From Rhodamnia argentea (lineage: Eukaryota; Streptophyta; Magnoliopsida; Myrtales; Myrtaceae), in the NCBI RefSeq assembly GCF_020921035.1, contig NC_063154.1:26079448-26143447 (forward strand): DNA of 64,000 nucleotides, given 5' to 3'. Of the stretch, positions 11,622-50,423 are shown one piece after another. Numbering within the stretch: the stretch's first letter is position 1; each line of letters opens with the position of its first letter. The notes below the pieces were generated by a model. That model made no database searches and was not told where the DNA came from. It saw nothing but the letters and a program-made list of their open reading frames with translations. Made by a program: the position numbers and the translations under genes.

Positions 11622-12416
11622 TCAAAATAAAAACTGTCCCTCCCCACTCAACAAACCCATATCCAATATGGGAAAGGGGATTGGACTTCCAAAATCCACC
11701 TCAGCATCCACGGTGACCTCTCTCTTTCTCCTCTTTGTTCTTGTCATCGAGTCGTCGTCGCCGGACGTGGACGGCGAACTAGGCTCGGCGGATCGATGCT
11801 TGGGTCTGACCCTGACAGGTTCGTACTCGGCCGAGCCGATGAGGTGAGGAAAGTTAAGCTTGGCCTTGGACCCCCTCATATTAAAAGCAGCCCGGTCGTA
11901 GGCAAATGCCGCGTCCTCGGGCGTCTCGTATGTCCCAAGCCAAATCCTCGCCCCGTTCTTCTTGGGGGCCCTTATCTCCGCCGCGTATTTTCCCCACGGC
12001 CGCCTCCTCACCCCTCTATAATGCGTCTTCTCGACCGGCACTTGTACCTCAGGCTCCACCATATCCGGTTTCTCCTCCATCGCCCGACCAATCCTGTTGT
12101 AATCAATGGACGTCACTTGAAAATCAAGTTCTTGATTTGAAGCCGGAGGCATCATCCACCCGGAATTGAGCGCATCGCGCAAAGCACCGTACACCAACAT
12201 GTCCTCCGAGTCGTCGACTTTGAGGGGCAGTTCGCTCCAACTGTCCATCAGCAAAAGATTGCTGAAGCTTGAGCTCCTTGAATACATGTTTGCGGGAGTT
12301 GGTGCATAAAACGCTGCATTGACACCATCGTCATTATCTATAAGAAGATGCTCCCAAATGGATTTCGAGACATCGAATCGATCGGTCTCAAAAGGACTGG
12401 TGATTTCTTGAAGCAT
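11622..12416 (-). CDS. ERF13-like ethylene-response transcription factor (ERF copy B)
   Basis: Single-exon 264-residue protein, intact. The N-terminus [20 protein letters not shown] is followed by a Ser-rich segment, then [19 protein letters not shown] (residues about 65-83). The AP2/ERF domain spans about 132-190 ([41 protein letters not shown]). After it come [10 protein letters not shown] and a basic nuclear-localisation-like TKRRKREV. This order matches Arabidopsis ERF13. The expected role is a nuclear GCC-box-binding regulator in ethylene/jasmonate and defence signalling. The residue after EIR is Ala (EIRAPKK), replacing the Asp used to define ERF-type AP2 domains, which might alter binding. 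It has one QELDFQV segment where copies A and D have two. The ATG was chosen because all copies start here and the TATA box is about 120 bp upstream. Confidence 0.93.
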
Positions 12417-30654: not shown

Positions 30655-31740
30655 TCTTCTTATTCAAGAATCTAGAAGACACGTTTCACGTCTTGCACTT
30701 TGTCCGTGGGAGGACGTGCTTCTACATACGGTTGTCATTGTTTTCGTCGTGGAAAGTGGACCGGCATTTGTGCCGCCAGAAGCCGGGACATCAGTGGTGC
30801 AGTGGACGCCCTTTGGCACGGTCGTTGTTGTCGCTGCAGGATGCGAACTGAGGTTGGCGGGCGTCGCCAGAAAAATCCAGGTAAGTGGGACCGCAGATGT
30901 TTCGTGGAATGACAACTTTGCCTTGGTTGAAAGGTGGGGAAGTGGATGGTTGATCTTGAGCGATGGCGGTGGCCGAGGGTGGCGATGCGACGGATCTGTG
31001 ATCATCATGGAGCGAGCGGGTCTTCTTTGCTCGTCGATTCTCTTCCACAAGTTGTGCTCGACCGCGCAGATTCTGGCACACCTTCTTGCTTGCTTCGTCA
31101 GCGTATTTGTTGTTGATTACGCATAAGACACACTCTATTTCTTTGATGACAAAGCACGCTTTCCATATCAACCACATCATAATGAATTGTCAAGCAATTA
31201 ACTGATTAGTCAAACAATTCCTTTCATACCCTAATCTTTTTTGCGGTCCATTGCAGATGGATCAGAAACACATTTTATATTATCAATCAAACCCTAACAA
31301 CTGGTTTGAAACTAGATAGAACTAGTTAGGATCCATAAAAAAGCACCAGAATTGAGTAAATAAGCGCCTTATGTTTTCGAACATACGAGATTGTCAAACG
31401 TTGGCATGGAACGAATATCGCGTTTGGGGAATTCCTATTGACAAAACCATTAACGATGATGAACCAATCAAACGTGTATTTGAGATAATTAGTAAGCTAA
31501 AAGAAAAGGGAAAGAAATACATACATTGTGGGGATGTTTTGAGTACTCGTACATGATCCAGTGCCCATTCTCGTAATGGCTGAAAGGCTTAGAAATTTTT
31601 GTCCCCCCATCATAGTTTTCAAAATAAACAAAAGGAAACTCTGGATTATCACTTTTCCGAATGGTTGGGTTTCATGAAGGATCCGATTCCTCAAGATTTC
31701 TGATGGAATGCTAGGTGGTTCCAAACTAATGTAGCTCATA
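30655..31740 (-). pseudogene. NAC-family transcription factor pseudogene, two-exon remnant
   Basis: Exon 2 remnant at about 31125-30664: IECVLCVINNKYADEASKKV, RAQLVEENRRAKKTRSL and EVVIPRNICGP-like text, closely matching exon 2 of the NAC gene at 36098-38003. A frameshift occurs near 30830. Homology stops near 30710, before the segment corresponding to the DREB2-like tail. The exon 1 remnant (about 31740-31525) ends NGHWIMYEYSKHPHN in a shifted frame. The intron between them (about 31130-31520) aligns well with the intron of the other gene, including AACTAGTTAGGATCCA. The N-terminal NAC subdomains are missing. The gypsy element sits directly beyond its 3' end. Confidence 0.75.
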
Positions 31741-31889
31741 TATCATGTGGATACACCAGGCCGATTCCTTTACTTGAACTTTTGCAGGTTAATTATTTGA
31801 ATTTGAGTTGCGAATTAGTAGAGGTTAGGAGAGCTCGAACTAGTATAGTCAATTTAATTAATCCGGTAATCCATTAAACTGAAATCTCG

Positions 31890-32180
31890 AATTTTAGGCC
31901 ATGACATAAGTCATACTCGTAAGGTCCAATTACCTTTTTTTCTTTCTCACTTTTCAATTTTTAATTTGCGGATGGTATGCAATAATCTCATTTCATGGGA
32001 CTAAAATGTATACCCCTTTGTTCTTGATTAAGCAAAACTCAAGATGTAAAACACCTAGAATATTTCAATGACTATGAACCCACTAAAATCTATTATTAAC
32101 ATTCAAACCCTTCAAATGGAAAAATTCTAAAGATATGTTACTCAAATTAACATTAGTATAGTAGAAGATCAAGGGCTCAT
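31890..32180 (-). repeat. Duplicated NAC upstream region, unit a
   Basis: Aligns with sequence upstream of the NAC gene at about 38390-38600. Shared segments include TTCTTGATTAAGCAAAACTC/TTTTTGATTAAGCAAAAATC and AGATATGTTACTC. It marks the duplication unit that produced the NAC pseudogene. Confidence 0.6.
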
Positions 32181-32620
32181 ACTTACAAGAACCCCAAATT
32201 GATACATCCGTGCCACATTTACCTTAGCTTATATACTTGTATCACATTTACTCTAAACTAATTTTTTGTGACAAAAAATCTTAAATTGCTACACCCATCA
32301 TGCCACATTTATAGTCATGTCACATTTACCCTAAACTGTTGTAAATCTGAATTTCTTTTTGGGGTAAATATGGCACATATGTACTAGCTTGGAAGCAAAT
32401 GTGGCTCGGATGTACAATTTGAGATTTTTTGTGACGTAAAAATTGGATTGGGCTAAACATGGCACAAGTACACCAATTTAGGATAAATGTGGCGCGAGTC
32501 TACCGGCTCGAGAGTTTTTGCGATACAAAAAGTAGTTTGTGGTAAATGTGGCATGGATGTACTAGTTTGAGGTACTTGATGGTGTTAATTTTAAATTAAT
32601 CTTAAACTTTGCTATTCACT
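32180..32620. repeat. Degenerate repeat of GTACCAATTTGAG / TGTGGCAC type
   Basis: Many diverged, partly inverted copies of motifs such as CACATTTACCCTAAACT and its complement. A homologous copy lies at 39190-39540 with the same neighbours, so it was duplicated together with the NAC unit. Probably an old TIR element; no TSD could be fixed. Confidence 0.5.
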
Positions 32621-32659
32621 CTCTAAACAACTAAATGTAGATATATTGTATATATTAGG

Positions 32660-33015
32660 ATTAGCGTTTTTCCTTTTGGTGTATGCATTTATGGTTATAC
32701 TCTTCATTGCATGTGTATTTATATTGGCCTTGCGCATATATGGTAATCAAGCATTCCATTATATATTTCTCTGGATCTAACATGGTATCGGAGCTAGGGT
32801 TTGCTTCTTGTGAGTATTATATACCAATCCCCAACTAGGATTTGTTGCTCTTCTTTCCAAACTCGGGTTGGTTGACCCATCTTGAGTTTGAGGGATGGAG
32901 TTTTCCCCTTTAGTGTATGTATTTACATTTATATTCTTCCTTATATGTATATTTATATTGGCCTTGCGCCTAATAGTAATCAAGCATTCCATTATCCATT
33001 TCTCTAGATCTAACA
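32660..33015 (+). mobile_element. TRIM-like miniature LTR retrotransposon
   Basis: Two direct repeats of about 120 bp (about 32660-32782 and 32895-33015) share TTTATATTGGCCTTGCGC, AATCAAGCATTCCATTAT and the end GATCTAACA. The first is followed at once by TGGTATCGGAGC (32783-32794), one base off the initiator-tRNA-Met primer-binding consensus. A purine-rich GAGGGATGGAG precedes the second. The internal region of about 110 bp has no coding capacity. The outer left boundary is approximate and no TSD was found. Confidence 0.6.
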
Positions 33016-33019
33016 TAAA

Positions 33020-34130
33020 GTACCCTCATTTTAAAATTTTTAACATGACGGTGATTAAAGATCAAATCTGAGTCCATTAGCACAATAGTGTTTAGGTGAC
33101 TGTAACAAGAACAATATGTTGCGAGCCAAAATTTTTTGAAGGAGTGGACCCCACATTAAATTCTAATTATTTTGTTTGTAGCTCAAAACAAGCTGTTAAT
33201 CTCATTGTGAATTAACCACAGTCACATAATCAGTTCTCTTATATGTATCACGTGGCATGACACTTTGTATGATCAAAACTAACAGTCTACGTCCCTGATG
33301 CTTTGTTCTTCTTTTCAGCGGTTGTCCAAGTTATATTATGCATCAAATGCATAAAAAATTTCTTGTTTAATTTTCCTTTTTATAATGGTAGTCGTTTTCT
33401 ACATCATAGACCTGTAGACTGTGCACATGCACTCCCATTGATGCATTGCGCCGTCTTAACTTAGTTATCCTCTACATTTAGCCGACTTCTGTTAATTTCG
33501 ATAGATGGTTAAGTTCCATTAGTTGATCACGCAAAGTTTCACTTTTTTAGTCTGCTTATATCCATCTGGCGAGAGTAGTTGGATTAGATTCTTGTTCACC
33601 TAACTGATTCGAACAATCTTCTCCAAATGCTTGATCAGATTTGACATGAAATCAAACTTCTTTGAAAATTCGATAACTTGTTTGAGAGCTTTCTAAAGAT
33701 AGCCCTTTCGCTCAAATCAGACTTTTGACATTGAGATTTCACCCTTCTAATCACAATTTTAATCTTGAATGTGCCAAAAGAATTTGAGATTTTTCCTTGT
33801 CAAGTAATATTTCCGTGTACATCTTATTACAATTCACAAAATTTCCAATCCTTGAGAATCGCCACAATTAGGATTGAAATGATGGATATATCACGATAGT
33901 AAGACATCACACGTATGTAACTTCAGGCATTACTCCTCGTCAAAATTTTCCCCGTCAATAGTTCAATTACGTATTGATTATCTCCAATCCTTCTATGGTG
34001 ACAATTTACGATGTACTTATAGATTAAAATGACCCCTATATTCGTGGAAAAGATATAAGTAAAATACTAAAGAGGGATCAATTTCAAAATCACATGCATG
34101 AATTAATAGGTAAAATGGGCAGAGGGGTAG
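33020..34130. other. Intergenic, no feature seen
   Basis: AT-rich sequence without recognisable coding, RNA or repeat-boundary signals. Confidence 0.5.
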
Positions 34131-35100
34131 ACAAGAACCCATCTTTTTAAAACGCGGAATGAGCAAAACAACAACAGATTTTTGGAGAAATACTCAATAT
34201 TTTAGAAGAAACCGTCTTTCCTCTTTTAGCAAGAATCCTGGCGTGATCAAATTATTTGAATTTCTCTGATTATTTGAAAATCAGGTCAATAATGATGAAC
34301 GAAAATTGCAAAGAAAAGTGCGATTTGAAGACAATGATTAATGGGCTAGTGGGTGGCCAACTAAATATAAATATCTTTTCAATGTTTTCTTCTTAGCGTT
34401 AAAATCACGAAAAGCCCTAAACGGGTATATTTATGATAAATTTACCGTAGGATATTTTTTGACCATCAAAAATCTTAAGATGGTACACTTGTACCAAATT
34501 AACCATATGTTAGTTTTTATTAAATTTTACCGTCAAATTACCGAGTTAGATGACACGTGGCTGTTGGCGGATATACCAATTTTGGGTTTTTACCCTCTAT
34601 TATCACAAGTGTACCAATTTGGGATATGAATTTATTAATCCAATTTTAGGAAAATGATAGAAGGTAATTTTATCACAAATATATCAGCTTGGGGTTTTGG
34701 TGGTTAAAAAATTAGTTTGGGATAAATTTATCATAAATGTACCGTTTGAGTTTTTTTTTTTTTCAAAAAATTAACATGAGGTAAATTTGTTATAAGTGTA
34801 CTAGTTTGAGATTTTTCATGATATTAACCATTCTTCTTGTATACACAAAAATGGTAAAAGGAGATTAGCCCGTGCCAATAGGAGTAATATGACTAGTCTC
34901 ACATATCTGTAAACTAACAGATTGCAAGTAAGGATCATGTAAATCTTGATATATATGTTTAAGTCATGCTCATAAATCTCAATTGCCTTTGTACTTTCTA
35001 CTTTTCAATTTTTTTACTTCTGGTTGGCAGGCTTTAATCTCATTTTGTAGGAATAAATTGTAGGACATGTTTGTTCTTGACTAAGAAAAAGTAGAAAATA
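34130..35100 (-). repeat. Duplicated NAC upstream region, unit b (gene missing), split by a MITE
   Basis: TTAGCAAGAATCC...ATTATTTGAA (about 34225-34270) and GGAGATTAGCC...CAAATTGCAAG-like text (about 34858-34930) match the region upstream of the NAC gene at about 38200-38420. No NAC coding sequence follows it. It appears to be a third duplication unit whose gene has been lost. Confidence 0.5.
34396..34830. mobile_element. Mutator-like MITE in duplicated NAC upstream sequence
   Basis: The left end TTAAAATCACGAAAAGCCCT and the reverse complement of the right end, TTAATATCATGAAAAATCTC, form diverged inverted termini that continue into ATAAATTTACC. Flanks TTCTTCTTA (34387-34395) and TTCTTCTTG (34831-34839) are a 9-bp target repeat with one mismatch. 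No ORF. Confidence 0.55.
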
Positions 35101-36097
35101 TTTGTTTGATTTCCCTCCGAAATTTGAAGTATCATCCAAGTTTTTTTAGAGAAATGTCAAAAGTATTTGAGAATTTGCGTGCCAACATATGTATGTTACG
35201 AAAGGTTTAGGTTTTTAGAATAAAAACAAGGGTGCATTTGTTTTGTAATACGAATCATTTGAAAATATTTTATTAAAAATGATCGCTCATACCTCTTACA
35301 AAAATGAATGAATGAGAAATACTTTCATCATTCACAAAAATGTTTTGTCAAAATTATTTTCTGCAAAGGAAATATTTTTATTAGCTAATTATTTCAAGCG
35401 ATACATCATTCATTTTCAGGAAAATATTTTTCAAGTCACTTATTTGTCGAGAAACAAACAGAATCATTCATTTTTCGCAAAACAAACAGATCCTAAAAGT
35501 GAAAAGGTAAGCTCCAAAACGTGTAATTAACATGTGAAACATGTGGTGGACTCAAGAGAGGTTGCCCCTACCGCGAGATCTATAAGGAAGAATATCAATA
35601 TAATCAGTTGTATAGATGTATATATTCATTATCTGAAATAATTGTCCCGTCCTCCTTATTTTATCCCGTCTCTGTTGATTTAACTCTTGACTCCGTCCGT
35701 GGCTGTGTCATATTGGATCAGTCTCTTGTGAGCTCGGTTCACGTACACCGTGATCATGAAATAATTGCTCTCCAAATGGATTCCCTATCGTCTTAACAGA
35801 AATTCTGATTCATGCCACGAAATGTCATAACATCGGAACGGCACAAATTCAGAATATGAGAGGCGAAGCTCAAATGTCAGAACCAAAAACAAATCAATAT
35901 ATCCAGTCTTTTTTTTTTCCAGTATTACAGCAGTTCACAATTACAGAGTTCAGCTCACAAAAAGCAAATGAAACCATTACTCAGAAAACCCTCCAGACAA
36001 TGCAATCCTAAAAACGTAATTGTCCCGTCAGATAAAAGATATTCAACATCTGTCAGTGAAAGAACAAAGTTAATACTCTCTTCATACGCAATTCTAG
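35100..36097. other. Intergenic plus 3' flank of the NAC-DREB gene
   Basis: AT-rich. The part from about 35800 to 36097 is the likely 3' UTR and downstream flank of the minus-strand gene. A T-run lies at 35909-35918. No other gene recognised. Confidence 0.45.
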
Positions 36098-38003
36098 CTA
36101 TTTGTGTTCTAAATGTTCTGCTGCTCCATCTTGACATCCGGTGGAGAACTTCGGGTCATCCTCCAAAGTCCTCAACAATTCGTCCACATCGAACAGCTCG
36201 TCTGCTGTGTAGTCGCTAAGCCAGTCGAAATCGACATTGGTTTCATTCATCGGCTCCAACTCTCCACCATCCGCATTCAACTCGCCCTCGCGATCCCCGT
36301 CCTTAACCTCCGCACCGCAAGTCAATTCAGACTGAGTTGACCAAGCCGTGGTCTTGCTTGGGGTACCAACTGAATAACCAGTGCTCGGGATACCAGCCGT
36401 ATTAGCAGTAGTGCGCACAGATGTCATGGCTGTGACGGCCGAATCACCGAAAGACATGGGATGAGACGTGCTGGGGAGATTCAACCTCGCACACGGACCG
36501 TACATTGCCCTCGCAGCTTCATCGTAAGCCAGGGCGGGTTCGATTGCAATTGGGTACGTGCATGGATGCCGCACTCGAGCATAGGTGCTGCCGTGCATGG
36601 GCGCCACCATGCTCATCATTGAAAGTGGACTGGCATTCCCGCCGCCAAAAGCTGGGAAATCAGCGGTGCGGCTGATGTCCATCGTCTCAGCCGTTGTCAT
36701 CGCCACGGGAAGCGAGTTGAGGTTGGTGTCGCCATCCAAATCCGGCAAAGTTGGACCGCAAATGTTTCGTGGAATGACAACTTCATCTTCGTTGAAAACC
36801 CAGGAAGATGCTGGTTGAACTTGAGTGGCGGCGGTGGTTGAGGGTGGCGATGCGGCGGAAGAAACGCCGAAGATGTTTGTGCAATCATCGCGGAGCGGGC
36901 GTGCCTTCTTTGCTCGTCTATTCTCTTCCTCAAGTTGCACTCGGCCGTGCAGATTCGGGCACACCTTCTTGCTTGCTTGCTCAGCGAATTTGTTACTGAT
37001 CACGCATAGTACACACTCTGTGTCCTGCATTATTTATAAACAAACTAAATTATCCTTTCCTTTTGATTAAAAAAGGGGAAAACAAGAAATTAAACAACGA
37101 TAACACATATATGAAAATTGAAACAACATGTATGCCCTAGAATTGTACATGCAACCTATAGGGGGAGGGCCAAATTGGTGTTACCACAAAAAGCACACTT
37201 TCTTGATCAACCACATCATGATGAAAATAGTTATTCGTCGCTTTTTCCAATCTACCGATTGATCAAAGAATTCCTTTTATACACTAATCTTATTTTCAGT
37301 CCATTGTGGGTGGATCATAAACATATTTGTATCATAGTGAACACCTAAATTCTGCTTTAAATTGGATAGAACTAGTTAGGATCCACAAAAAGCACTAGAA
37401 TTAAGTGCTTTAGCGCCTTCCGCATTCAAACAAACAAGATTGTCGAACATTGACAAATTTATCATGGAACGAGCATCATGTCAGAGTATCGTGTCCAAGG
37501 TATTCATACTGACAAAAGCATTGAGGAAGATATACCAATCAAACATGTATTTGGGATAATTATAAACCTAACAGAAAAGGGAAAGAAACGCATACATTAT
37601 AGGGATGCTTTGAGTACTCATACATGATCCAGTGCCCATTATCGGCCTTGTCGGCTTCCGCGCTCGAGCTGGTTTTCGATCTAAAAGTAAAGAGTTTCTT
37701 GTAGCCAACTACCTCACCGTGCGAACCCTTGATTTTGTAACTCTGTTCGCCCTTCCAAGTGCCGGAGCCAGCGGTCCTATCCACTCTCGATTTGTTCTTC
37801 TTCTTCAACATGGTGAAAACATAGAACTTCTCATCCCGGTCCTTACCAAAAATCTTCCAAGGATCGCCACCGCCGTACACGTCGCAATCGCGGACGATGT
37901 CCGGATCGGGCAGCGATTCTCGATTCAGCCTCCGCATCAAGTAATCGAAGAAAAGTTCATCGTCGGTGGGAAGAAAACGAAGCCCACAATACCAAACCAC
38001 CAT
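36098..38003 (-). CDS. Chimeric transcription factor: NAC-type N-terminus fused to DREB2-like C-terminus (two exons)
   Basis: Exon 1 is 38003-37596 and exon 2 is 37024-36098. The intron 37595-37025 starts GTATGCG and ends TGCAG, phase 0. The predicted protein is 444 aa. Residues 1-136 show a divergent NAC fold: GLRFLPTDDELFFDYLMRRL, DPWKIFG, EKFYVFTMLKKKNK, GTWKGEQSYKIKG, VVGYKKLFTF and GHWIMYEYS. Exon 2 opens with a NAC-paralog segment (DTECVLCVISNKFAEQASKK). From about residue 300 it changes to ALAYDEAARAMYGPCARLNL, the last helix and end of a DREB-type AP2 domain. It ends with DYTADELFDVDELLRTLEDD (about 271-290), like the acidic activation end of DREB2A. The DNA-contacting part of the AP2 domain is absent. 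Binding would therefore rest on the NAC part, with activation possibly from the DREB2 part (inference). Expression is not shown by sequence. Confidence 0.72.
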
Positions 38004-38093
38004 CGTAGTGAACTCCTATGCAATGACAGAATTTGTTCTTCCTTTTCTCTGGATTTTTGGTTTTTGAAAGAGAGACTTTTGGTCTCGTGAGCT

Positions 38094-38100
38094 TTTATAA
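38094..38100 (-). promoter_or_regulatory. TATA box of the NAC-DREB gene
   Basis: The minus strand reads TTATAAAAGC, about 90 bp before the ATG at 38003. This supports that ATG as the start and suggests an intact core promoter. Confidence 0.6.
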
Positions 38101-39190
38101 ACATGGACCGAATGCGAAAATCTCACCGGCTTAAAGTCAGCCAATTTTTTGGAACTTTATCCTCAAGTGAACAGCTTCTTGAATGGGTTAACAAAAAACA
38201 TCTTTCCTTTGTTAGCAAGAATCCGAAATCATATTATTTAAATTTTGTTGATTATTTTTAAAATCTTGTCAAAATCCGGAGAAAAGAGTGTGTGAAAAGA
38301 TCTTGATTAATAGGAGATTAGCCGTGCAAAGTGGGATTAAGATGACTATCACACGTGTCTGCAAAATAACAAATTGCAAGTGAGGATGACAACTGTATCC
38401 AATTGTCTTCGTATTTTCTCACATTTCTTTTTTTTTTTTTTAACCTTCTAGATTGTCTGCGTTAATCTCATTTTAAAGGACTGAAGTGTACGGCCCTTTT
38501 GTTTTTGATTAAGCAAAAATCAAGATGTAAAATCTCTGATTAAAATTCAACCCCTTCAAATTGAAACATTTTAGAGATATGTTACTCCAATCAGGGATTA
38601 AGTGTCTAAGATTGCTAGAATTCAATGAACGTTAGTCATTTTTTAAATGAGTTAAAAAATATCAAGTAAGTTGGTTGCACATTACTAAAAAGGGTCTTGC
38701 TAATCACCATTCTAGCGGTACTTGTTAAATGTGTTTACTGAAGAAATTTTCGATCTTGAATCTATTGGCTGTGCATATCATGAGAACATTTAGTGTATTG
38801 AAAATGATAATATTTTACTTAGTTTGTTGCTTAACAAATAACTTAAGAGCATTTTTATAAACAAAAGATCATAATAAGACTTATGAGTGTCTATTTGAAG
38901 ATACTATTGATGAGTACATTTCAGAAAGTAATTTTGGCATGGTTAGATTCGGGAACAATAAATTGAACTGAGCAAGGCGTTGAGCACACAAACTTGTTCT
39001 CGGGTAAATATCTAATTCCATGAGGGTAGATGTAAATGACTAGTATGTTTAACAGGTGCCTCCAACAAGAATTAGTAAATAATCTTTGAAATAATAATAT
39101 TACTTATATAGGAATGACCAATCTTCCTTTCATAGGATAAAACTTACCATATAGCATTTTTTTTATGCATAGTAGATTTCAATATAATAT
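38101..39190. other. Upstream region of the NAC-DREB gene
   Basis: Shares blocks with the duplicated units at 31890-32180 and 34130-35100. No coding sequence. Contains a T-run at 38429-38440. Confidence 0.5.
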
Positions 39191-39540
39191 TAGTAGAGCA
39201 TAAGATCAAGGACCCATACTAACAAGAACCCAAATTGATACATTTGTATCCCATTTATCCTGAACTTATACACATGTGTCACATTTATCCCAAACTAATT
39301 TTTGTGCCGCAAAAAGTCTCAAATTGCTACACCCATGCCGCATTTATAATCATGTCACATTTACCCTAAATTGTTCTAAATCTGAATTTTTTTCGTGATA
39401 AATGTGGCACGAGTGCCCTCGCTTGACAGCAAACTTGGCTCGGTTGTACCAATTTGAGAGTTTTTGGGATATAATTTTTTTCGGGTAATTGTGGCACGAG
39501 TACACCAATTTAGCAAAAATTTGTTTCATGTAAGGTGCAA
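39190..39540. repeat. Second copy of the CACATTTACCCTAAACT-type repeat
   Basis: Homologous to 32180-32620, with the same left flank (AGTAGA...AAGATCAAGG). It therefore marks the outer part of the NAC duplication unit. Confidence 0.5.
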
Positions 39541-40600
39541 ATATCTTCTCAACTTTCTTGAAAAATAAAGATATTTATCCCTTATAAATTCATATATACA
39601 TCAATAGATATTGTGTACACATATAAAATATGTGAACAGGGAGATCAGGATGTGTACACGGGAAGGAGATCATACTCCCATGTTTGATGGAATGTTATCT
39701 TGAATCTTGATAATTGCTGGCATAAATTGTACTCCGTGGCATGATATTATTGGACGACTTCACTAATTGAAAGCCACTTTTATCCAAAGCCGCCGTTACT
39801 CCTATCTTTTAATTTCCTCGAGTAATCTTGTAAACATCGTAATTTGCTTTTAAAAGTTAGAATTGACTAAAAATTTGTAAAAAAAAACAGTTGCTTCCTA
39901 CGAATAAAAAAACAAAACAAAAACTTATGTTCACTAAACATTTAAAAGGAATGACAGGAAAGCCAATGTTAAATGAATGTTCGGAATAAACAATTTAAGG
40001 AATAATACAGATAATGAACCATCACAAAGTCGAATAATATGTGTAATTTTGTAGATGTCGCTGAACAATTTCATATTAGTTAATACAAGCAAAGAAAAGT
40101 GTTGTATGACAGTGTGAAGACACCTTTGAATATATAAAAACATGATGAAGTGTTAAGTATTTAAAAGACTCTGTAATACTTCGACCAAAAAAAAAAAAAA
40201 AAGAAGAATCTCTAATACTCAACTTTAACTCACTAGTCGTAATAATAGAATTGACAACTTACTAACAATTCAATTGTCTTAGAATCTTGTTCTAAAAGAA
40301 ATTGTCTTGGAGTCTGAGAAATTTAGAGCATGAAATGGAGAAGAATTAAAATCCACTACTATGAAGTACAACGAGATCCTTCGCGTGCGCTATACACGTG
40401 TCAGATAAGAGATGAATGCAAGTAATTTTTAGTAGAAGAATAGAAATATGAACTTGAAAGTGTGAGGGATGAACCGCATGAGATTGTGAGATTCGATATA
40501 TAATTCGAAGATATGGAACTTTATAAATATAACGTTTAAATATCATCTTTGCATTTTCCTATGACAAAAAGGCAATTAAGTGGGGGATACCAAATTAAAA
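39540..40600. other. Intergenic, no feature seen
   Basis: AT-rich, with an A-run at about 40186-40201. No gene or boundary recognised. Confidence 0.5.
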
Positions 40601-40639
40601 GCTTCAATTTATATTGTATAAGTAAATGACCAAGTAGCT

Positions 40640-41165
40640 AGCAACAATGTGGTCATCCTTCTTGTCCAAGAACTGAAGTATTTTCTCAACAACTCGAACA
40701 TCAAGAACATCTTCACCATTTCTTTTTATCTAGTTGACAATTGTTAAAACTCTTGTGAAATAATCAGCAATCAACTCAGATTCCTTCATATGGATTACCT
40801 CAAATTAACCTCTTAGAGTTTGAAGACGAATCTTCTTCATTTTCTCAACTCCTTGATGCGTGTTGTGAAGAATCTCCCACGCCTCTTTATATGTCGAGGC
40901 ATACGACACTTCTTGAATATGGAATCAACTAAGGGTTGATAGATAGTCGATAGAGCAAATTGGTCTTTTGTTCAAACCTTGTCGAGGGCATTCCTCTAAT
41001 TCTGGTTCAACATGGCTTCGTCGTCTAGCTCATCATAGCCAGTGTTGACCATTTCCCATATACCATGGGCGCCAAGTAATGCTCTCATTTTAGAAGCCCA
41101 ATTACCAAAATTTTCTTTGGTAAGACTAGGATACTAGCAAGGAAGATGAGTGTTTGTAGCCATGA
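40640..41165 (-). pseudogene. Copia gag (UBN2 / DUF4219 type), heavily broken
   Basis: Minus-strand translation starts MATNTHLPC, then YPSLTKENFGNWASKMRALL, GAHGIWEMVNTGYDELDDEA, and later pieces matching the usual gag helical region (ESELIADYF-like, RNGEDVLDVRVVEKIL-like). At least six stops and several frame changes occur. It is recognisable only by order and motifs. Confidence 0.65.
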
Positions 41166-41427
41166 TCACAAACCGTAAGTTTTTACGAAAAACCGTAGGC
41201 TGTAATATCGATTTGATGGGATAAATCGAAAGTAGGGCTCTAAACAAACACTCACAACTCAACTCTACTCACAAAGGAGGAGGAGATGAATATGGCTTTT
41301 TAATATTCCATATTCACAATTGATTCACCCATATCAAAATGGTTACACGACACACCTATTTATAGGCTTGAAACATGACTTTTAATCTACTCTAGATATA
41401 TGAACAGACAAAATGTAAATACATTAT

Positions 41428-42500
41428 TGCTCCGTTTGTTTGCGGAAAATATGATCTTTAAATGTTTTCGAAGTCATTTTCCAGGAAATGACTTCCTTTT
41501 CCAATGTTTGGCAAAAACTTGAAAAGTTCCGGAAAATATTTTTCCGCTATTTGGTAAGGAAAATTGTCTTATTTTAAGTTCGAAACTTGATTATATTAAT
41601 TTTTTAATTAATACCCTTCCGGTACCAATTTCATGAAAAAAGTTCAATTTGGCAATTTTGATGAATTCTGACTTGAAGTTCAAAGGTGCATTTTTTTGAA
41701 TTTTCTTTTTATGATTTTTTTTATATTTTGAAATTAAAAATAAAGGAAAATTAAAGTGAATTGGTTCAAGGTTACCTTTCAGAATTTGAAACAATATCAA
41801 ATCGATTCGATCCTACTTGCGGATAGGGTCGGCGATGGTGCGAACGGCGGTGTCTCAAGCGAAGGAGCCTCACGGTTCATGGTGAATTCCGGGGATGCTT
41901 TGGCAATTTCAAATCAAAATCAATTCCGTATGTCAACTTATTGCGCCCCACCTTAAAGGCGGGGACTCGCAACCGTGCTCTCTATTGTAGCCGTGAAGTC
42001 TTCAATGAATTTCCATGGCCTCAAAAGTCTCTAGTGATCAGAATCTGCGGGAAGAGTCATATGGTTGTCATCACCGCTTAGTAAGGGAGCTCATGGGTGA
42101 TCTTATGAATCGTTTTTGGCAAATGTTCACCATCGGGCAAACTTGTGAAAATAGAGAGAATGGAGCTTCACCTGGCCGTTAGTAAAAGTGCGAGAAGGGG
42201 AGAGAGATGCGCCTCTAATTTTGTGGAAACAAATGAAGGTGGTCCATCGAACGCTGCGAAGGTCTCCGCCCTGGAGGCCACCCTTGGCGGCGACATCGAC
42301 CTTTGAATGCTTCATCGACGTCAACTACGTCGGGCGGTGAGTCTCAAGACCGGAAGGCCGATGTCATCCTACGGGCGAGTCCGCGGCCGAGCTCGCGTGG
42401 AGCACGAGAAGTTCGACGGACCACAACTTTGTTCCTCGCTATCCCTTTCCTTGCTCGCCTGTGGCTAGCAACCTGCCGAGGGAGAAGAAGGAATACTAAA

Positions 42501-42554
<54 letters not shown>

Positions 42555-42832
42555 GAAAGTAATTAAAAAATAGATTTTATCTGAAAAATAAAAAACGAAA
42601 AAGAAAGGAAAAAAATAATTAAAAAGAAAAAAATAGTTGAAAGAGAGGAGGAATGAAAAGTGTGGAAAATGTTTTCCTCTTCTCAAAATGAGGAAATCAT
42701 TTTCCTTAGTTTTAGAAGGTTTTTTTTGTTGATCGGAAAATATTTTCCGTTGACCGCTCATTTTCCGCCCCCAAAATATCGGAAATTGGGGAAAATGTTT
42801 TCCGGAAAATATTTTCCGTGAAACACGGAGCC
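41428..42832. mobile_element. hAT-like non-autonomous element with (TAA)n microsatellite
   Basis: Left terminus GCTCCGTTTGTTTGCGGAAA and reverse-complemented right terminus GGCTCCGTGTTTCACGGAAA form inverted repeats. Subterminal GGAAAATATTTTTCC-like motifs occur at both ends. Flanking TACATTAT (41420-41427) and TACATTAA (42833-42840) are an 8-bp target repeat with one mismatch, the size typical of hAT elements. The interior has only chance frames. It is nested in the copia LTR. Confidence 0.65.
42500..42553 (+). repeat. (AAT)n microsatellite, about 18 units
   Basis: Uninterrupted AAT/TAA trinucleotide run within the hAT-like element. The poly-Asn and poly-Ile frames it generates are artefacts. 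Confidence 0.9.
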
Positions 42833-43017
42833 TACATTAACTACATATCGGAATATGAACAGACTCTTGAAAGACTTAACTAATAATGACTTTTGAAAAT
42901 TATACAATAATTAAGACAAGTCTTGATTCGTGCATAGGTTCTAGCATGCATCTAGGGAGTCAAATGGTCATGGTTCATATATCGATGGCATTCATGAATT
43001 TGATTTAATTTCTAACA

Positions 43018-43478
43018 ATCCTCATGCCGTTCTTCTTGGGGTCTCTTATCTCCTCCGCGTATTTCCCCCACGGCCGCCTCCTCACTCCTCTATATTGCAT
43101 CTTCTTGACTGACGCTTTCATCTCACGCTCCACCATGTACGGCCTCTTATGAACCTTCGGACCAGTGCCGCCATAATCATCGGTCATCACCTCGCAACTA
43201 AGTTCTTGATTCGAAGCCGAAGGCATCACCCACCCAGAACTGAGAGCATCGCATTGCGCAAAGCTTCATACACCAACAAGTCCTCCGAGTCGTCGACTTT
43301 TTGAGGAAGTTCGCTCCATCTTTCCGCTAGCAAAAGATCACCAAACCTCGAACTCCTTGCCGCAAAAACTGTAGCATTCTCAACAAAAACGTTATCATCT
43401 TGAAGAAGCTGATCGAAGAATTGATTTCAAAACATAGGATTGATGGGTTACAGGGGGACTCATGGTTTCTGGAAGCAC
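43018..43478 (-). pseudogene. ERF13-like pseudogene truncated by the copia element (ERF copy C)
   Basis: Closest to copy E. Reading leftwards, the position of the start codon is GTG (43478-43476) where copy E has ATG. A frameshift follows shortly after the MSP segment. The frame seen further on includes [16 protein letters not shown] and the AP2 start [20 protein letters not shown], then breaks inside NGMRI, where the copia LTR begins. The C-terminal half of the AP2 domain and the tail are absent. Upstream, AAATATAGGTTGAGCTA (about 43573) corresponds to the TATA region of copy E. The gene is dead. Confidence 0.85.
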
Positions 43479-43835
43479 TTTTTAACGGCGACCAAGGAGC
43501 TATTGACTTGTTTATAGTTTGTAATCGTTGATGATTGAAGAAGGGCTAGAGAGGAATAGTTGAGAGGATGACCAAATATAGGTTGAGCTACCTTGAAAAA
43601 TCATTAAAAGAAATCTATCATTGAATCTAATTTTTGTTATATAATTAATAAGCTCCCTTATTGCAGTTTGCTGAGAAGGGGCCTCTGCATGAGTGGTCAG
43701 ATTTTAGGCACCTGTTTGGAATGTTGAATGCCTATTTATTTAGCGGACAGTCCATATCGAAGAATGTGCTTTTGCGTTATCACGAAATTATATAATTCGA
43801 GGTAGGGCACGTTTCTTTGTCGATTACTATAGTGG
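43479..43835 (-). promoter_or_regulatory. Relic promoter region of ERF copy C
   Basis: Aligns with the upstream region of copy E through CTTGAAAAATCATTAAAA (about 43592) to GGGCACGTTTCTTTGTCGAT and ACTATAGTGGCAAT (about 43805-43840). The resemblance ends where MITE copy 3 begins. Confidence 0.55.
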
Positions 43836-44240
43836 CAATTGGGGAGAATTATCAAAAAAAAGTTTTAAATTTATTGTAATTGTGATAATTCAATCATAAA
43901 CTTTTTTTTAGTCGATTCGGTCCTAAACCTTTTCAAATGTGTCAATTCAGTCGTCCGGCCAATTTTGGCCAGCTAACGCCAACGTGGATGTCAACCGTCG
44001 CCTGTTGTCCGATGACTTACTATTTTAATACGTTTTTTTGTGTGAACATTTTTGAATTTTTATTTTCTTTTTTTCTTTCCTTTTTTTCTTCCCTTTGCTT
44101 CCCCTGGCTGGTTGGCCTTGCTAGGGGCTGGCAAGGATGACATCGCCAGGCTAGATCTAGCGAAGTCGAGCCTTGGCTGAGTGAGGCTCGACCTCACCAT
44201 CGCCGGGCAAGGCCACACTCTGCAAGGCAACGCTAGCCTG
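43836..44240. mobile_element. Mutator-type MITE, copy 3, right end not found
   Basis: The left end GGGGAGAATTATCAAAAAAA and the following TTTATTGTAATTGTGATAATTC match copies 1 and 2. A GC-rich interior (about 44100-44240) resembles the interior of copy 2. The opposite terminus and second target repeat were not found, so it is probably truncated. Confidence 0.45.
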
Positions 44241-45098
44241 GTGACAGTGGAGTATTTGCAAAAATTCAAGACTTAAAATTTGGGAAAAGACAAAGATGTC
44301 ATAAAGGATGACTAAAATGGACGTGGTGAGTGTTGAAGTTGTTGTCACACATCGACTGACAATAGATCTTATGTGCTATTTACATTCATATTGTCTCCCT
44401 TCATTTATAATTTTAAACTTTTGAGTTGGACCTAACTAATAGATCATACAAGGTTCACAAGGAACCAAATGCTAATTATAAATGCAGTTGTGATTTTTAC
44501 TTTTGTTAGCATCTTTCTACATTGAGAAAGCACATACGTACAACTAGTGTCGATGAGTTTTTCATCCCCGAAGAAAAGTAACCTTCAATTGCCATATTGG
44601 TGTTGGAGCCCGTTACGCTCGCAAGGAAGATTGCCAACAAGGGGTTTAAATATGAGCCTATACTGTATATCCAGTTAGATCCATCAATAAGATATAGAGC
44701 AATTAAGATATACTTAAATACTCCACATCACATCAATTTTTTGATGTAGGATATTTTCTGACACAACTTACACATTTATCTCAACATTGATAGCAACTTC
44801 CAACATAGATAAATAAGTTTGAACATAGTAATACCACTTTTGGCCAAAATACAACCAATTCGTGATTTGTAATTTCTGTGGGGTTAGTAACTACCAAACT
44901 TATTCATAGAGTCACGAAACCATCATATGAAAGGTAAATGTTGATTGATCTATAATTGGTAGTTAGTAACGTTTGTACGAATGAAATGGAATATAAACAC
45001 TATAGATCGATAGTTTCGACAAGATAAATTTTGCCTGATTGACTTTTCATCGATCAAATCTCTTTTTGTGTAGTTTGCACAACCAAAATAAAAATCGC
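44240..45098. other. Intergenic, includes 3' flank of ERF copy D
   Basis: AT-rich. The last 100 bp resemble the downstream flank of copy B (GATTGACTTTTCATCGATCA). No other feature recognised. Confidence 0.5.
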
Positions 45099-45923
45099 TC
45101 ATCCACACTCAACGAACCCATTTTCTAAAATGGAAAATGGGATTGGACTTTCAAAATCCACCTCAGCATCCACATTGACATCTCTCTTTCTCCTCTTCGT
45201 CCCGGTCGTCGAGCCGCCATCGCTGGACATGGATGGCGAGCTAGGCTCGGCGGACCGACGTTTGGGGCTGACCCTGATGGGCTCGTACTCGGTGGAGCCG
45301 ACAAGGTGAGGAAAGTTGACCTTGGCCTTGGACCCCCTCATCTTAAAAGCTGCCCGGTCATAGGCCAATACCGCATCCTGGGGCTTCTCATAAGTACCGA
45401 GCCAAATCCTTGCCCCGTTCTTCTTGGGGTCCCTTATCTCTGCCGCATATTTTCCCCACGGCCGCCTCCTCACTCCTCTATAATGTGTCTTGTCGACCGG
45501 CGCTTGTACCTCGTGCTCCACCATCACCGGTTTCTCCTCCGTCGCCGAATCAATGCTCACTTCCAGATCAAGTTCTTCATTCAAGGCCACACCAAAGCTG
45601 TGACAATCAACGGTCGTCACTCCCAAATCAAGTTCTTGATTCGAAGCCCAAGGAATCGTCCACCCGGAACGGAGCGCGTCGAGCAAAGAGCCGCACACCA
45701 ACATGTCCTCCGAGTCGTCAATTTTCAGGGGCAGTTCCCTCCAATTCTCCGTCAGTAAGAGATTGCTGAAGCTTGAGCTCCTCGAGTACATGTTTGCAGG
45801 AGTCGGTGCATAAAATGTTGCATTGACTCCATCATCATCATCATCTTCAAGAAGATGCTGACAAATGGATTTCAAAGCATCGCATTGATCGGTCTCAAAG
45901 GGACTGATAATTTCGTGAAGCAT
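45099..45923 (-). CDS. ERF13-like ethylene-response transcription factor (ERF copy D)
   Basis: 274-residue protein. It begins [20 protein letters not shown], then [13 protein letters not shown] (about 67-79), an AP2/ERF domain from about 147 ([39 protein letters not shown]), [19 protein letters not shown] and TKRRKRDV. The tail [13 protein letters not shown] matches copy B. The frame is open upstream to an ATG at 46124. That start is rejected because the TATA box (46041-46048) lies between the two ATGs, and copies A, B and E start at the 45923 position. It carries the doubled QELDLGV/EELDLEV segment also seen in copy A. The ERF-signature Asp after EIR is present. It is expected to bind GCC-box promoters in the nucleus. 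Confidence 0.92.
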
Positions 45924-49703: not shown

Positions 49704-50423
49704 CTAAAATAAAAACTGTCCGTCCACACCTAACAAAGCGTTTGAATCGACCTCTCTCTTTCTCCTCTTCGTCCCGGTCAATCCGTCGTCGCTGGACGGC
49801 GAGCTAGGCACGGCGGACCGACGCTTGGGGCTGACCCTGACAGGCTCGTACTCAGTCGAGCCGATGAGGTGAGGGAAGTTGAGCTTGGCCTTGGACCCTC
49901 TCATCTTGAAAGCAGCCCGGTCATAGGCCAACGCCGCGTCCTCGGGCGTCTCGTAAGTCCCCAGCCAAATCCGAGTGCCGTTCTTCTTGGGGTCTCTGAT
50001 CTCCCCCGCATATTTTCCCCACGGCCGCCTCCTCACTCCTCTATATTGCATCTTCTTGACCGGCGCTTGCATCTCACGCTCCACGGTCTCCGGCCTCTTC
50101 TGCAGCTCCGGACCAATGCTGTCACCATCAACGGTCATCACCTCGCAACGAAGCTCTTGATTCGAAGCCAAAGGCATCATCCACCCAGAATTGAGGGCGT
50201 CGCGCAAAGCGCCATACACCAGCATGTCCTCCGAGTCGTCAACTTTCAGCGGAAGTTCGCTCCAACTTTCCGCGAGCAAAAGATCACCGAAGCTCGAACT
50301 CCTTGGCGCAAAAACCATGGCATTCTCATCAACAGCATCGTTATCCTGAAGAAGGTGATCGTAAATAGATTCCAAAGCATCGAACTGATGGGTCTCAAGG
50401 GGACTCATGATTTCTGGAAGCAT
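49704..50423 (-). CDS. ERF13-like ethylene-response transcription factor (ERF copy E)
   Basis: Single-exon 239-residue protein. It starts [20 protein letters not shown], then [20 protein letters not shown] (about 59-78), an AP2/ERF domain at about 127-185 ([40 protein letters not shown]), [19 protein letters not shown] and [10 protein letters not shown]. It ends [10 protein letters not shown]. It lacks the acidic segment ([13 protein letters not shown]) found before the end in copies B and D. It shares KKMQYRGV and the EREM(Q/K)A linker with pseudogene C, so C and E form a sub-pair. All ERF-signature residues are present. A strong TATA box lies about 105 bp upstream. Confidence 0.93.

Follow-up and report, generated by a model that had tools for sequence, protein, structure and literature searches.

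Chimeric genes formed by gene-segment capture are a known category in plants, in which a partial copy of one gene is joined in frame to another gene. To our knowledge, exchange of activation tails between plant transcription-factor families seems rare, and searches of an open-access library showed no natural NAC-DREB or NAC-AP2 fusion among the titles listed. The closest described parallels are factors that bind RCD1. In the NAC factors ANAC013 and ANAC046 the NAC domain precedes a disordered tail, and an RCD1-RST-binding motif in that tail, [ED].{1,2}[^RK][YF].{1,4}[^RK][DE]L, lets them bind RCD1 (PMC6908617). In Arabidopsis DREB2A, according to PMC10796322, the RCD1 motif overlaps activation domain AD1 and adds to Med25-ACID binding.

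Here we describe a gene of Rhodamnia argentea (Myrtaceae, tribe Myrteae; genome 346.7 Mb) in which a NAC domain runs into the end of a DREB2 protein. It lies in the window, a 64,000-nucleotide stretch of contig C5, to which positions refer unless a contig is named. Like other plant capture chimeras, it joins a partial gene copy in frame to another gene; what sets it apart is that it unites two transcription factors and that its frame has been preserved in a tandem pair of copies. Its layout resembles that of ANAC013 and ANAC046 (PMC6908617), in that a presumably disordered tail carrying such a motif comes after the NAC domain. Unlike those proteins, to which the motif is native, the fusion received its motif with the captured DREB2 tail, and its NAC domain belongs to a Myrtaceae clade that is divergent and reads WKGEQ where WKATG is usual. 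Our main reading, which we hold at a probability of about 0.5, is that of a natural chimera giving a NAC factor the co-regulator-binding tail of DREB2, for which we infer expression, DNA binding and partner binding.

Structure of the NAC-DREB2 gene

The gene is read from the minus strand. Exon 1 (37596–38003, 408 nt) encodes residues 1–136, most of the divergent NAC domain, and is followed by an intron (37025–37595) with GT donor and AG acceptor, found at the same place in a tandem copy, and by exon 2 (36098–37024, 927 nt including the stop). Spliced, 38003–37596 and 37024–36098 join in frame to encode 444 amino acids with no internal stop. Upstream is a TATA box, TATAAA (38094–38099, starting at 38099), which the alignment shows to be kept in a fusion copy on contig C3. 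Residues 7–131 match Pfam NAM/NAC (PF02365; E 3.6e-22; 79.6 bits against a gathering score of 27), and the PDB sequence matches are NAC-domain proteins: NAC19, stress-induced NAC1 and NAC92. The DREB2 part aligns with the Psidium DREB2A-like protein P0013 at 76.6% over 158 columns (E 1.2e-74), far above chance. The fusion is thus real at the DNA level, and the sequence-only reading of a two-exon gene passing in frame from NAC to DREB2, with intact splice sites, frame and TATA box, is borne out. AP2 is absent from the Pfam matches of the 444-residue protein because no more than its C-terminal two-fifths remains; NCBIfam gave no match for P0013 or for P0001, the NCBI protein from the locus.

Exon 2 is composite. 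Its NAC-derived part (36595–37024, minus strand), containing the end of the NAC domain and a linker, is delimited by homology to unfused paralogs. Three paralog loci were compared and two (L024 and L017) were informative: homology to the fusion gene ends at 36621 for the paralog at C3:31.777 Mb and at 36595 for the one at C5:24.945 Mb. At the remaining locus, L023, the strand that was searched held no matching exon. The DREB2-derived part (36098–36561, minus strand) comprises the C-terminal two-fifths of AP2, a Ser/Thr-rich linker, an acidic tail and the stop. Although the sequence-only reading placed the fusion point near 36530, the homology limits on the NAC and DREB2 sides move the junction to 36595–36561. 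Between the two parts is an in-frame filler of about 33 nt (36562–36594, minus strand) of unclear origin that is common to both other fusion copies. The resemblance of GSTYARVRHP to GKWVAEIREP hints at a possible origin from degenerate AP2 sequence, but the filler lies outside the blastn homology to intact DREB2.

The intact DREB2 relative matches at C5:2,130,965–2,131,681, on the same contig and 24 Mb off. Its DNA is 82.6% identical to that of the fusion over 36561–35815 and 87% identical over 35815–35769, so that 329 nt after the stop (35769–36097, minus strand), including the DREB2 A-tract, are also DREB2-derived. This extension beyond the stop suggests a copied DNA segment. In the Psidium protein the AP2 domain occupies residues 71–120, and DREB2 homology sets in at residue 100; the fusion therefore retains 21 of 50 AP2 residues and lacks the first 29 together with the DREB2 N-terminus. 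It does not have the complete AP2 domain of DREB2 and AP2/ERF proteins, and DRE binding would not be expected. With the preceding part gone, a double DNA-binder combining NAC and AP2 is ruled out. In other respects the fusion resembles the DREB2A-like proteins P0013, P0014 and P0015 and the intact gene at C5:2.13 Mb, with which it shares the C-terminal AP2 part, the Ser/Thr-rich linker and a FDWLSDY..ELFDVDELL tail; it differs at the extreme C-terminus, which is frameshifted. A one-base insertion at 36139 (minus strand), relative to intact DREB2 and the C3 copy, puts the residues after KFST out of the DREB2 frame and alters the last residues of the C5 fusion copies.

On the NAC side, the unfused Myrtaceae genes annotated as "NAC domain-containing protein 2/58/68-like" (P0002–P0012) share the NAC domain and linker, and unfused Rhodamnia NAC genes share the place of the intron, seen as exon-by-exon matches. 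The unfused relatives aligned lack the C-terminus of the fusion and have their own, in most EWADQLKNMEISP or similar, whose place the DREB2 part has taken. In NAC proteins WKATG is a DNA-contact stretch. The fusion has WKGEQ where ANAC019 has WKATG, and DNA binding by its NAC domain is accordingly uncertain. W83, K84, E86 and Q87 are invariant in an 11-row NAC alignment, so WKGEQ belongs to the clade as a whole and is not peculiar to the fusion. Across P0001–P0012, the stretch around residues 83–87 is WKGEQ or a near variant (WKEEQ in P0008, WKGER in P0010).

Further AP2 matches occur on the minus strand at 3–167, 11844–12023, 43017–43100, 45306–45485 and 49869–50051. Four of these five places, all but the one at the left edge of the window, were translated and read as ERF-type, and the one at 43.0 kb is broken. 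By these translations the NAC-DREB2 gene appears embedded in a tandem array of ERF-type genes, which we take to be group ERF IX, and a surrounding CBF/DREB1 array is ruled out.

Three genomic places of the chimera

The chimera occurs in three genomic places, as two open tandem copies on C5 and a decayed copy on C3. The tandem duplicate (copy B, C5:26,062,571–26,060,666) is 97.8% identical to the window gene (copy A) over 2.4 kb and has the same 444-residue frame open; splice sites are intact in both, and the coding part has no indel between them. In the third copy, near 17.52 Mb on C3, promoter, exons, intron, junction and filler are matched at 84%. Read in the frame of the window gene, its NAC part has three TAG codons and frameshifting indels; its DREB2 part has a stop, and the copy is split by two intervening DNA stretches (about 3.3 and 0.6 kb). 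Genome-wide protein searches found no further fused copy (150 of 169 and 124 of 124 candidates scored). The sequence-only reading of a NAC gene with a DREB2 end held for the fusion, frame and splice sites; its view of a fusion peculiar to this copy is excluded by the other two. A single fusion event followed by duplication would be the simplest account.

That view had drawn on a nearby NAC pseudogene whose similarity was said to stop before the DREB2 part. This decayed copy (30744–32147, minus strand) retains promoter pieces, the end of exon 1, the intron and exon 2, and its similarity to the fusion gene, patchy as it is (one block at 75%, another at 74%, and two short stretches in the promoter), does end before the junction. 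It ends at 30744, equivalent to 36613 of the fusion gene and upstream of the junction, so that the pseudogene cannot tell whether its own ancestor was fused; the pattern was seen correctly and the inference of copy specificity does not follow from it.

The tandem copy lies in a segmental duplication. Window positions 31413–45745 and pieces to 48395 match C5 from 26055953 onward; identity is 95% in the first 9.5 kb, 92% in the 5 kb that follow and 80–92% in the pieces beyond, and the two segments are about 55 kb apart. The C5 copies differ at 5 of 571 intron bases, compared with 6 of 408, 10 of 462 and 13 of 465 in coding parts and 15 of 398 in the 3′ flank; gene conversion or base composition may explain the low intron divergence. 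On C3, eleven repeats of the NAC gene start, spaced about 1.7 kb apart and with one TAG each (C3:17526801–17543970), adjoin the decayed fusion copy as an amplified dead fragment.

Residues in the DREB2 part point to the lineage of the donor. TYP, ALAYD and LNLP are common to the fusion, the intact Rhodamnia gene and Psidium, unlike TFP, AKAYD and LNFP of Syzygium and Corymbia, so the donor gene came from the Myrteae. The NAC tree unites the C5 fusions, the C3 fusion and unfused Psidium P0002 in a single supported group without settling its internal order: placing the three fusions together (p-AU 0.34) or the C5 fusions with Psidium (p-AU 0.21) is accepted, and the three possible groupings have 1, 1 and 2 informative residues. 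The DREB2 tree does not settle its order either. The NAC grouping places the fusion event close to the Rhodamnia-Psidium split, on a side that the trees do not decide.

Product of the locus and constraint on its frame

What protein does the locus make? P0001 has 288 residues, of which 266 are identical to the fusion and the last 22 match a shifted frame exactly. The shift comes from leaving out a 47-nt GC...AG stretch (36588–36634, minus strand), whose removal leads to a TGA at 36521–36519, before the DREB2 frame. Because the DREB2 part is missing from P0001, the annotation speaks against a working fusion protein. P0001 may thus be the product made, with the 47 nt spliced as a GC-AG intron and the DREB2 DNA serving only as 3′ untranslated sequence, and the GC-AG ends would fit a transcript-based splice call. 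We regard this as less likely than the chimera: an intron of 47 nt would be very short in a plant, GCCAGT makes a poor donor, and some constraint on the DREB2 frame is seen in the C5 lineage. Protein searches revealed no protein joining both parts, either among the best 120 of 230 matches (7,994 candidates scored; top query coverage 73%, a NAC) or, in a second search, among the best 120 of 129 matches (top coverage 65%, a DREB2).

Constraint was estimated in several ways. Across all 444 codons, Ka/Ks between C5 copies A and B is 0.35 (13 synonymous and 16 nonsynonymous changes). Taken separately, the NAC domain gives 0.19 (4 and 3; only seven changes) and the DREB2 part 0.46 (5 and 8); a further estimate for the DREB2 part is 0.41, with an interval of 0.13–1.6. 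Between the fusion and intact DREB2, Ka/Ks over 140 codons is 0.26 (bootstrap 0.14–0.47; 29 synonymous and 30 nonsynonymous changes), on a path that is partly the intact gene's own. When changes in the DREB2 part were polarised at positions alignable in both the C3 copy and intact DREB2, synonymous and nonsynonymous changes numbered 10 and 12 in the C5 lineage, 9 and 27 in the C3 lineage, and 18 and 15 in the intact gene with the stem. Tested against the site ratio, the C5 count deviates (one-sided p 0.017) and the C3 count does not (p 0.46); the contrast between the C5 and C3 lineages is not significant (Fisher p 0.15). Unique residues number 12, 15 and 17 in the fusion DREB2 part versus 8, 7 and 5 in the intact gene with three outgroups. 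These values suggest modest constraint on the DREB2 tail.

It is also conceivable, though rather improbable, that both C5 copies are decaying and still open by chance. The extreme C-terminus is frameshifted in both, copy B has changed FDVDELL to FDEDELL by a V to E substitution, and stops are found in the C3 copy and in many genomic NAC matches. In neutral simulations the whole frame stayed stop-free in 6–19% of runs, for an assumed 60–110 changes, and the DREB2 part in 41–57% (22–36 changes), so that openness alone is weak evidence. Decay fits less well with the NAC-domain Ka/Ks of 0.19, few as the changes behind it are, with the lack of any coding indel between the copies and with the retained splice sites and TATA box.

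Origin and possible role of the captured tail

Under our main reading of a natural chimera, about 0.8 kb of a Myrteae DREB2A-like gene, its 3′ part and 3′ flank, would have entered exon 2 of a NAC gene by copying and taken the place of the native C-terminus without breaking the frame. The copy was more likely made as DNA. Arrival of the DREB2 part as a 5′-truncated reverse-transcribed mRNA, a question of origin that is independent of function, would account for the presence of only the 3′ part and 329 nt past the stop, as in 5′-truncated retrocopies; we think it improbable, since the A-tract is also in the intact gene, homology runs about 140 nt farther, and its end at 35769 has no terminal poly(A). 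That assembly or annotation joined two genes is strongly contradicted by the same junction and filler in two other genomic places and by the 24 Mb separating intact DREB2, and assembly error is ruled out.

The captured tail carries the sequence DELFDVDEL (36176–36202, minus strand; residues 411–419), which fits the RCD1-binding expression given in PMC6908617. By that expression the motif is present in both C5 fusions, as DELFDVDEL in copy A and DELFDEDEL in copy B, and in four of four DREB2 relatives tested, and is absent from P0001 and all 11 unfused NAC relatives tested. The fusion thus has a DREB2 acidic tail with FDVDELL, or FDEDELL in copy B. Capture would thus equip a NAC factor with a site at which co-regulators dock, and ANAC013 and ANAC046 (PMC6908617) indicate that a NAC domain combined with such a motif is workable in principle.

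The C5 genes would then most likely encode a nuclear protein that dimerises and is targeted to DNA through its NAC domain, while its DREB2 tail acts as an acidic activation and hub-binding segment, recruiting Med25 and restrained by RCD1 through the FDVDELL motif. Binding of the tail to Med25 and RCD1 would, we propose, bring NAC targets under DREB2-type stress control. This fuller picture of a natural hybrid factor in a Myrteae lineage, a NAC reader with a captured RCD1/Med25-binding DREB2 tail, is tentative, and we put it at somewhat less than even.

If expressed, the gene would be a natural domain-swap experiment, in which a regulator gained a new co-regulator link in one step. A single genome offers the controls, namely unfused relatives, an intact DREB2 and a dead fusion copy, and the case asks directly if the RCD1/Med25 motif can be carried naturally from one family to another.
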